Source of the DNA: Methylotenera mobilis JLW8
Lineage (GTDB): Bacteria; Pseudomonadota; Gammaproteobacteria; Burkholderiales; Methylophilaceae
Direction of reading: 5' to 3'
Assembly: GCF_000023705.1 (NCBI RefSeq)
Contig: NC_012968.1
Location: 1,054,001 to 1,118,000, forward strand
Length of the DNA: 64,000 nt
The translations under genes and the position numbers were made by a program. The notes under the pieces are model-generated. The model was not told the DNA's origin and ran no database searches. It saw nothing but the letters and a program-made list of their open reading frames with translations. This document shows, piece by piece, positions 20,758-22,223 of this stretch; position 1 is the stretch's first letter; every line of letters starts with the position of its first letter.

Positions 20758-20778
20758 GCCTAGTCTGGGGTACTAGGC
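20758..20778 (+). other. Hairpin after purF
   Basis: GCCTAGT (20758-20764) pairs with ACTAGGC (20772-20778) around a 7-nt loop, six bases after the purF stop. Only a weak T content follows, so it is a possible weak terminator or 3'-end hairpin. Confidence 0.4.
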
Positions 20779-20816: not shown

Positions 20817-20845
20817 TTGACTGGGTTTGAACTTAGGGCTAACAT
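20817..20845 (+). promoter_or_regulatory. Predicted sigma70 promoter for the metZ leader
   Basis: TTGACT (20817-20822), a 17-nt spacer and TAACAT (20840-20845) form a good sigma70 promoter. Transcription would begin near 20851-20852, at the 5' edge of riboswitch stem P1. That coincidence supports both calls. Confidence 0.6.
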
Positions 20846-20850
20846 GAAAT

Positions 20851-20928
20851 TGCGCTGATTTGAGTTTGCCAACATTAATCAAGGCCACACTCAGCTTGCG
20901 GGCGCGTTATAAACACAGCTAAAGCGAG
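20851..20928 (+). promoter_or_regulatory. SAM-II (SAM-alpha) riboswitch aptamer upstream of metZ
   Basis: P1 pairs TGCGC (20851-20855) with GCGCG (20902-20906). After the P1 5' strand comes the conserved GATTTG (20857-20862). After the 3' strand come TTATAAACA (20907-20915) and GCTAAA (20918-20923), in the order known for SAM-II. The pseudoknot helix pairs CTTGC (20895-20899) with GCGAG (20924-20928). Loop L1 carries an extra hairpin (GAGT and GCC in 20862-20870 with GGC and ACTC in 20883-20892). The element lies 105 nt before metZ, the gene class this riboswitch controls. The consensus is recalled from known examples, not searched. Confidence 0.85.
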
Positions 20929-20937
20929 TACACAAAG

Positions 20938-20973
20938 AACCCGTTTTAGCGCAATGCTTAAGCGGGTTTTTTT
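20938..20973 (+). terminator. Riboswitch-controlled intrinsic terminator in the metZ leader
   Basis: AACCCGTTTTAGC (20938-20950) pairs with GCTTAAGCGGGTT (20956-20968) with one G-U pair, one T-T mismatch and a five-base loop; a T-run follows. It starts 10 nt after the SAM-II aptamer and ends about 60 nt before metZ. Bases 20946-20953 or beyond are complementary to the P1 5' strand (20851-20858), giving a mutually exclusive antiterminator. Confidence 0.85.
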
Positions 20974-21032
20974 ATGGCGCAAAAAAATGGCGTTGACTAA
21001 AAGTAGCTGTAATCAAGAATTTAGAGGTAATG

Positions 21033-22223
21033 ATGAATAATAATTTACAATTTCACCCAGAAACACTTAGTGTGCGTGCCGGTAGCGAATCAACGCCATA
21101 TGGAGAGAACTCCGAAGCGATGTTCTTGAACTCTAGCTTTAGGTTTGAAAGTGCAGCGCAAGCAGCTGCTCGATTTGGTGGTACAGAACCCGGCAATATC
21201 TATTCACGCTTCACCAACCCTACCGTCACTATGTTTCAGAACAAGTTGGCGGCCTTAGAGGGCGCAGAGCAGTGCGTGGCAACTTCTAGCGGTATGTCTG
21301 CCATTCTGGCGTGCGTCATGGGCTTATGCTCTGCAGGCGATCACATTGTGGCTTCACGCAGCATTTTTGGTACTAGTGTGCAGTTGTTTGGCAATATCCT
21401 GAAACGGTGGGGTCTGGATGTTACCTTCGTGTCGCTCACAGATGCGAGCGAGTGGCAAGCAGCAGCTACGGCCAAAACCAAGCTGTTTTTTGTGGAAACA
21501 CCTTCTAACCCGTTAACTGAAGTATGCGATATACGTTTGTTGGCTGATATAGCGCATCAGGCTGGCGCACATCTAGTGGTAGATAATTGCTTTTGCACGC
21601 CAGCGATACAGCGCCCATTAGCATTGGGTGCTGATATCGTGATTCACTCAGCCACTAAATATATCGATGGGCAGGGTAGGTGCTTGGGTGGTGCGGTGTT
21701 GGGCTCTAAGGTCTTGATGGAGCCGGTATACGCTTTCTTGCGTACGGCAGGTGTGACCATGAGTGCGTTTAATGCCTGGGTGTTTTTAAAGGGCTTAGAG
21801 ACATTGCATGTGCGCATGGAGGCGCATGCTAGAAATGCTTTGGCATTAGCAACCTGGTTGGAATCGCAGCCGCAGGTGAGCCGTGTGCATTACCCAGGGC
21901 TGAAGTCTCACCCACAGCATGCGCTCGCCATGAGTCAGCAGTTGAGTGGCGCTGGGATTGTGACCTTTGAAGTGAAGTCAAGTGCAGGTAAAACGGCACA
22001 AGAGTCCGCATGGGCTTTAATTGATTCTACCCAATTAATCTCCATTACTGCGAACTTGGGTGATGCGAAAAGTACCATTACGCATCCGGCAACCACCACA
22101 CATAGCCGTGTAACCGCAGAGGCACGTGCAGCTGCTGGCATTAGTGATGGTTTGGTGCGTATCGCAGTGGGGCTTGAGCATATTGAGGATTTAAAAGCAG
22201 ATTTGGCGCTATTAACGCGCTAA
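21033..22223 (+). CDS. metZ: O-succinylhomoserine sulfhydrylase
   Basis: MetZ makes homocysteine directly from an O-acylhomoserine and sulfide with PLP, bypassing cystathionine. It is a Cys/Met-metabolism PLP enzyme. SVRAGSESTPYGENSEAMFL is the MetZ-type N-terminus, and YSRFTNPTVTMFQNKLAALEG and the PLP lysine in HSATKYIDGQGR (near residue 209) are clear. The 396-residue length fits. ATG 21033 is preferred to the adjacent ATG 21030 because GAGG at 21024-21027 is then 5 nt away. Expression should fall when SAM is plentiful, through the upstream SAM-II riboswitch. Acyl specificity (succinyl versus acetyl) is inferred from the family. Confidence 0.93.
   Translation: MNNNLQFHPETLSVRAGSESTPYGENSEAMFLNSSFRFESAAQAAARFGGTEPGNIYSRFTNPTVTMFQNKLAALEGAEQCVATSSGMSAILACVMGLCSAGDHIVASRSIFGTSVQLFGNILKRWGLDVTFVSLTDASEWQAAATAKTKLFFVETPSNPLTEVCDIRLLADIAHQAGAHLVVDNCFCTPAIQRPLALGADIVIHSATKYIDGQGRCLGGAVLGSKVLMEPVYAFLRTAGVTMSAFNAWVFLKGLETLHVRMEAHARNALALATWLESQPQVSRVHYPGLKSHPQHALAMSQQLSGAGIVTFEVKSSAGKTAQESAWALIDSTQLISITANLGDAKSTITHPATTTHSRVTAEARAAAGISDGLVRIAVGLEHIEDLKADLALLTR

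Follow-up and report, generated by a model that had tools for sequence, protein, structure and literature searches.

The metZ leader of Methylotenera mobilis JLW8 is, as judged by sequence comparison with its relatives, very probably a SAM-II riboswitch, and it likely switches metZ off by transcription attenuation. The leader occupies positions 20817-20985 (+ strand), upstream of metZ, in the 64,000-nt stretch of DNA analyzed here (contig NC_012968.1, positions 1,054,001-1,118,000 of the forward strand; hereafter, the window). We infer both the binding of SAM and the direction of the switch; an OFF switch by attenuation, put forward in a first-pass annotation of this DNA, appears probable from a conserved terminator and a conserved antiterminator complementarity.

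In the mechanism we favor, transcription would start at the base that opens P1. At low SAM, GCUAAAGCG (20918-20926) would pair with CGUUUUAGC (20942-20950), a part of the terminator's upstream arm; P1 may remain formed alongside, and RNA polymerase would proceed into metZ. The 20918-20926 strand would otherwise belong to the SAM pocket and the pseudoknot; with SAM bound, the pseudoknot (P2a and P2b) would capture this strand, the hairpin at 20937-20969 would form, and transcription would end.

Assignment to the SAM-II class

The target gene, metZ (21030-22223, + strand, 397 aa), encodes an O-succinylhomoserine sulfhydrylase according to two NCBIfam models over cut-off (NF006003, 683.4 bits against a cut-off of 522; TIGR01325, 562.6 bits against 510), in agreement with its first-pass name, and a probable ribosome binding site, AGAGG, can be read off the sequence at 21023-21027 (+ strand). 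The open reading frame upstream of the leader is presumably purF. Directly 3′ of it lies a perfect short inverted repeat (GCCTAGT..ACTAGGC, 20758-20778) without a T run. Among 145 leaders, the downstream open reading frame matched the MetZ of the window by BLASTP in 119, three of them at 32-36% identity. Four representative open reading frames behind other leaders were compared with NCBIfam; two scored above cut-off (MetX and MetK) and two below it (MetN and a MetH fragment). Outside the class, the SAM-II leaders of L163-L165 precede an ABC-transporter ATPase gene that is MetN-like but below cut-off.

An Rfam search of the 64-kb window returned no RNA family at gathering score. Under relaxed settings, model positions 1-79 of SAM_alpha (RF00521) match the leader in the right place and on the right strand (20842-20939, +), with E = 0.036 for a 309-nt query; the covariance-model check suggested in the first-pass annotation gives a match, but its 19.1 bits lie below the Rfam gathering cut-off of 36. 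Because this score is weak on its own, the case was built on relatives, two of which (L002 and L107) reach 38.4 and 37.2 bits with the same model. Other weak Rfam matches on the leader (RAGATH-11, mir-4178, snoR116, P9, Trp_leader, STnc370 and CLRN1-AS1) were regarded as chance. The SAM-II long loops model (RF01726) gave 17 matches in the genome at E 0.8-9.7 but none at the leader even at E 10, and identity with that family was dropped; RF01726 shares with the leader, by name, a SAM-II variant with long loops, but it is given for Bacteroidetes and marine sequences (Weinberg 2010, PMC2864571).

The leader is widespread among relatives. By blastn, 20840-20985 found a match in 45 of the 52 genomes from the window's genus and in 123 of the 150 (22 of 24 genera) from its family, partial matches at L056-L058 being omitted from display, and no match was found among plasmid records. 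At E 0.001, RF00521 matched 10 of 61 relatives, two of them over cut-off, and none of the 37 in the window's genus. We relied on a model, R1, made from an alignment (A1) of 53 of the order's 100 distinct aptamers. Within the order, R1 had matches in 292 of 399 genomes, representing 130 of 159 genera; the genome of the window has only one. For 24 genomes from other families searched with both models, 10 of which had contributed sequences to R1, matches came from R1 in 19 and from RF00521 in 10, two over cut-off. This suggests that the curated SAM_alpha model overlooks many members of one order.

Beyond the order, a survey of 398 genomes of the phylum gave R1 matches in 76 and RF00521 matches in 83, of which 69 were over cut-off. 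No sequence from another class went into R1, and it recovered all 30 loci of other classes (L184-L213) that RF00521 had above cut-off, each at the corresponding place and with E between 1.7e-6 and 5e-4 in 92 kb. Counted by eye, other classes hold 48 R1 matches, 38 that coincide with RF00521 matches and 10 that do not, and in some of their genomes (e.g., G571) the two types occur side by side. Because R1 and RF00521 recover common loci, we regard them as describing a single family that contains two types, the canonical one and one frequent in this order. Reciprocal models thus point to common descent with canonical SAM-II, RF00521 reaching the window locus only below its cut-off, and the class named in the first-pass annotation holds.

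The host range is not without precedent. SAM-II was published in a beta-proteobacterium in 2005 (Corbino 2005, PMC1273637), was reported with terminators in beta-Proteobacteria in 2007 (PMC2258182), and beta-Proteobacteria are listed among its usual hosts (PMC2704228). With SAM_alpha as described in the 2005 paper (PMC1273637), the leader shares P1, a pseudoknot, the GATTTG and GCTAAA strands, a promoter a few nucleotides before P1, methionine genes, and a downstream terminator, which many SAM_alpha elements have. It differs in its sub-threshold score, in a long insert in loop L1, and in P2b, which is CUC-A-GC:GCGAG in the leader and CCGGCC:GGCCGG in SAM_alpha.

Predicted start site and aptamer

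The putative promoter (20817-20845, + strand, scoring 9/12) has a -35 element, TTGACT, at 20817-20822, a 17-nt spacer, and a -10 element, TAACAT, at 20840-20845. A scan of a 321-nt stretch found two such sites against 0.7 expected; across leaders, such a promoter is present in 116 of 148 distinct sequences (0 of 148 at a control anchor), and the gap between the -10 element and P1 (GCGC) is 6 or 7 nt in 94 of those 116. Because this gap is conserved, transcription should start at or adjoining G20852, which leaves 20849-20851 probably untranscribed. We place the +1 at G20852, the first base of P1, so that the first-pass prediction of a start at the 5′ edge of P1 agrees with the spacing. Corbino 2005 (PMC1273637) puts the start of transcription a few nucleotides 5′ of P1. 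Between the terminator and metZ, at 20993-21020, is another promoter-like site (TTGACT, 16 nt, AAGAAT), which could drive metZ past the switch.

P1 pairs GCGCT (20852-20856, + strand) with GGCGC (20901-20905, + strand) through G20852-C20905, C20853-G20904, G20854-C20903, C20855-G20902 and U20856-G20901. Its register had been given as 20851-20855 with 20902-20906; the inner pairs of that helix stand, and its outer pair, U20851-G20906, is probably upstream of the +1. Covariation was read from an alignment (A3) of 86 loci hand-picked for spread, with 93 rows, seven of which come from the second copy at a tandem locus. Over its 92 distinct rows, two-sided changes occur at each of the five P1 pairs, and paired cells make up 99.8%, in an alignment that was fitted to P1; in the unfitted alignment of the order (53 sequences), two of the five pairs show two-sided changes. 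The two conserved strands named at the outset are where they had been placed. GATTTG (20857-20862, + strand), a conserved strand of loop L1, lies in a GATTTGA that is invariant in the 53 sequences, as is GCTAAAG, which contains GCTAAA (20918-20923). The canonical rows keep both strands too, with one exception in 17 (L194, with CATTTG). The GCTAAA core and the following GCGAG (20918-20928, + strand) supply the 3′ strands of P2a and P2b, and 20918-20926 doubles as the 5′ strand of the proposed antiterminator.

The pseudoknot probably comprises P2b, in which CTC-A-GC (20890-20895, + strand, with A20893 bulged) pairs with 20924-20928, and P2a, in which GC (20898-20899, + strand) pairs with 20918-20919. 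P2a is invariant and 100% paired, and because it is invariant it shows no covariation; it agrees with a short helix that Barrick and Breaker had predicted (PMC2258182). The pseudoknot was in no model; P2b shows two-sided changes in three of five pairs, with 80.4% of cells paired (92 rows), so that the compensatory changes among relatives that would speak for the fold are found in both P1 and P2b. The helix favored in the first-pass annotation, 20895-20899 with 20924-20928, shows them in one of five pairs, with 76.9% of cells paired (92 rows), and shows none in the 53 sequences; it was given up for P2b. On the alignment of the order only, paired cells are 95.1% for the abandoned helix and 93.6% for the P2b register, and one row, L160 (CTTGC:GCAAG), is a counter-example that fits the abandoned helix better. 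Read in 17 canonical rows, the outer three pairs of P2b keep the register in 6, are shifted by one base in 9 and suffer a deletion in 2 (CCGGCC:GGCCGG and CCGGTC:GACCGG are examples of the canonical register), and the inner two pairs, which are unformed in most of these rows, are a feature of this order's type.

The long L1 insert of the leader (30 nt, 20863-20892, + strand) lies between GATTTG and AGCTTGC and can form a weak hairpin. Counting duplicates, inserts in the window's family measure 5-41 nt, with 70 of 107 matches at 27-41 nt, and elsewhere 148 of 169 measure 4-9 nt and 21 are longer. Among 25 distinct 29-nt inserts, the AGT and ACT ends never vary; at one inner pair, 14 have A-T, 10 have G-C and 1 is unpaired. 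In lowest-energy folds of the leader, UUGAGU (20860-20865) pairs with ACUCAG (20889-20894). Stability is another matter: over 48 inserts compared with shuffles, the mean z was -0.49 and only 6 of the 48 had 5 or fewer of 100 shuffles as stable. A stable hairpin as a general feature was rejected on these figures, the hairpin not being generally stabler than shuffles, and we claim a weak one, on the basis of its pairing pattern. A long, hairpin-capable L1 insert such as that of the window's family seems to be new.

Terminator and proposed antiterminator

The predicted intrinsic terminator (20937-20973, + strand) consists of a hairpin at 20937-20969 (-16.5 kcal/mol) and a T run at 20967-20973, essentially where it had been placed before (20938-20973), and a terminator scan of the leader listed no terminator. 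Leaders were collected with a motif pattern among the loci as far as L183; 161 leaders reduced to 148 distinct ones, of which 141 had a hairpin of -8 kcal/mol or lower before a T-rich stretch and could be scored. The proposed antiterminator pairs GCTAAAGCG (20918-20926), in the aptamer, with CGTTTTAGC (20942-20950, + strand), which is also in the 5′ arm of the terminator.

In much of the family, the 5′ arm of the terminator is more conserved than its partner. The comparison was restricted to terminators with CCCG..CGGG (37 in the genus, 47 in other genera of the family, 34 in other families). Of the 47 distinct terminators from the family's other genera, 41 read TTTTRGC in the 5′ arm, whose entropies are 0-0.75 bits as compared to 1.03-1.73 bits in the mirrored 3′ arm. 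In the window's genus, where 31 of 37 have TTTTRGC, the asymmetry is confined to the first four positions, and at positions five and six the 3′ arm is the more conserved. In other families, 6 of 34 have TTTTRGC and there is no clear asymmetry. We consider the asymmetry between the arms a stronger argument for an antiterminator than the shuffle scores given below. In L172 and L176, an additional base in the aptamer strand (GCTAAAGAC) is answered by an additional T in the terminator arm, and L170 is alike; all three belong to one family, f49, and L174, of f49 too, shows no better fit to its own terminator. Among 24 variant leaders printed out, only four (L010, L170, L172 and L176) are clearly a better fit to their own terminator than almost any other leader is.

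This conservation bears on the alternative that the SAM-II aptamer has no functional antiterminator, the terminator being constitutive or leaky, the switch acting via RNA stability or translation, or the product being mainly a small RNA. In its favor, in Sinorhizobium meliloti a validated terminator follows the metA SAM-II aptamer and SAM was not predicted to affect it, and both SAM-II leaders give sRNAs (PMC9373788). For the present leader we judge this unlikely: within the family, the 5′ arm stays complementary to the aptamer strand while the 3′ arm drifts, and, with about 100 nt between the aptamer and the start codon, an overlap involving the ribosome binding site is not apparent.

Somewhat different is the proposal, made in the first-pass annotation, that switching goes through P1, with an antiterminator formed by 20849-20858 (which contains the P1 5′ strand) and 20946-20955. 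Its 10-pair complementarity in the window (L012) is real and is equaled by no shuffle, and its bare duplex is the stronger of the two (-12.6 kcal/mol, or -10.7 from the +1, as compared to -10.0 for 20918-20926 with 20942-20950). However, the first three bases of the pairing precede the likely +1, and the pairing is rarely conserved: at least 8 contiguous pairs are found in 10 of 141 leaders and at least 6 in 23, whereas the aptamer strand and the terminator arm (as a rule CGTTTTRGC) make at least 8 in 98 and at least 6 in 120. Among 46 dereplicated leaders, the numbers with at least 8 and at least 6 pairs are 21 and 27 for the 20918-20926 pairing and 1 and 7 for the 20849-20858 pairing; among the 24 of these outside the family, they are 6 and 10 as compared to 0 and 4. 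Shuffled arms often scored as high: p was at most 0.05 in only 90 of 141 leaders (20 of 46 dereplicated) for the former and in 14 (3) for the latter.

Folding points the same way. In equilibrium, lowest-energy folds of the growing transcript from 20852, taken every 3 nt and computed for RNA without pseudoknot and without ligand, P1 is kept together with all 9 antiterminator pairs at 3′ ends 20950-20965, and the terminator replaces the antiterminator from 3′ end 20968; the view that the antiterminator must exclude P1 is not supported by these folds. The 20849-20858 pairing was absent from all sampled lowest-energy folds, and its transcribed part, when forced, cost 1.6-3.3 kcal/mol relative to the fold containing the 20918-20926 antiterminator. 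We hold switching through P1 to be quite improbable, and the better-supported candidate for the conserved antiterminator is 20918-20926 with 20942-20950, which would compete with the pseudoknot and not with P1. A terminator and a mutually exclusive antiterminator that uses an aptamer strand are thus indicated by sequence and folding, strongly in the family and more weakly outside it. That the same fold serves another ligand, such as SAH or another SAM derivative, has nothing direct in its favor beyond the published precedent of a spermidine sensor that is a close variant of one SAM aptamer (PMC10853860), and with GATTTGA and GCTAAAG invariant in 53 sequences and the identified genes being those of methionine and SAM synthesis, it is very improbable.

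Two named RNAs and neighboring elements

Two RNAs that have been named independently appear to be the element described here. In a scan with Rfam models, Leyn 2014 (PMC4239095) recorded SAM_alpha only in Rhizobiales and Rhodobacterales and called a metXZ element new. That element, like ours, lies 5′ of metX or metZ, in taxa that include three Methylophilales, and has a pseudoknot formed from six conserved regions plus a terminator, with a terminator-antiterminator mechanism proposed; it differs in the antiterminator strands put forward and in having terminators stated to be unconserved in sequence. From its taxa, genes and architecture, we conclude that the metXZ element appears to be the SAM-II element.

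The second is RF02424, the Bp2_287 sRNA of Khoo 2012 (PMC3521395), for which a cis-acting element for methionine metabolism was suggested; it likewise lies upstream of methionine genes, a figure legend naming purF, metZ and metX. It differs from SAM-II in being classed as an sRNA and in having an Rfam model on the opposite strand. On the leader, RF02424 weakly matches 20890-20958 of the window on the minus strand. At E 0.001 it matches 56 of 300 genomes of the order, at 60 places, three of them over cut-off. All of the best 30 of these 60 matches (L333-L362, including the three over cut-off) overlap an R1 match on the opposite strand, strands having been compared by eye and the R1 match being partial in L335 and L362. 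By reading, L333 is a SAM-II leader before a MetZ-like start. RF02424 thus appears, by its sequence matches, to be the SAM-II element in antisense. The S. meliloti metZ SAM-II (Scheuer 2022, PMC9373788) shares with our leader the gene name and a predicted SAM-dependent terminator, but its host is alphaproteobacterial.

A literature search, with most subscription journals outside its coverage, found no paper equating the metXZ element with SAM-II, no paper containing the term RF02424, and no such report for Methylophilaceae riboswitches or long-loop SAM-II. Recognition of the metXZ element and RF02424 as the SAM-II element seems new and, if true, would place two independently named orphan RNAs, one a beta-proteobacterial element and the other an sRNA family of Rfam, in a single riboswitch class. 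It would also give these attenuators a concrete antiterminator, which differs from that of Leyn 2014 and from that of the first-pass annotation.

A more ambitious reading, which we offer tentatively and would sooner bet against as a whole, combines this identity with a three-part switch, suggested by the bases that the L1 hairpin and P2b use in common. In the window's family, the L1 hairpin would mask most of the pseudoknot 5′ strand together with a portion of the SAM pocket, the SAM-free state would be held by two competing helices (the L1 hairpin and the antiterminator), both of which SAM must displace, and the metXZ element and RF02424 would be this same riboswitch, with RF02424 recorded on the wrong strand.

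In several leaders, a second SAM-II-like aptamer lies ∼100-170 nt downstream on the same strand (L002, L009, L107, L158, L162, L167, L168, L231, L241, L266, L267, L280, L292, L339, L340, L348 and L360), after the terminator wherever the sequence was read. As 44 tandem SAM-II doublets were reported in 2022 (PMC9481103), tandem arrangement was dropped as a novelty. L170 and L172 also carry a manganese riboswitch (RF00080, over cut-off; 617-803 and 692-874, respectively), which is oriented like the SAM-II leader and lies ∼0.6-0.7 kb before it.
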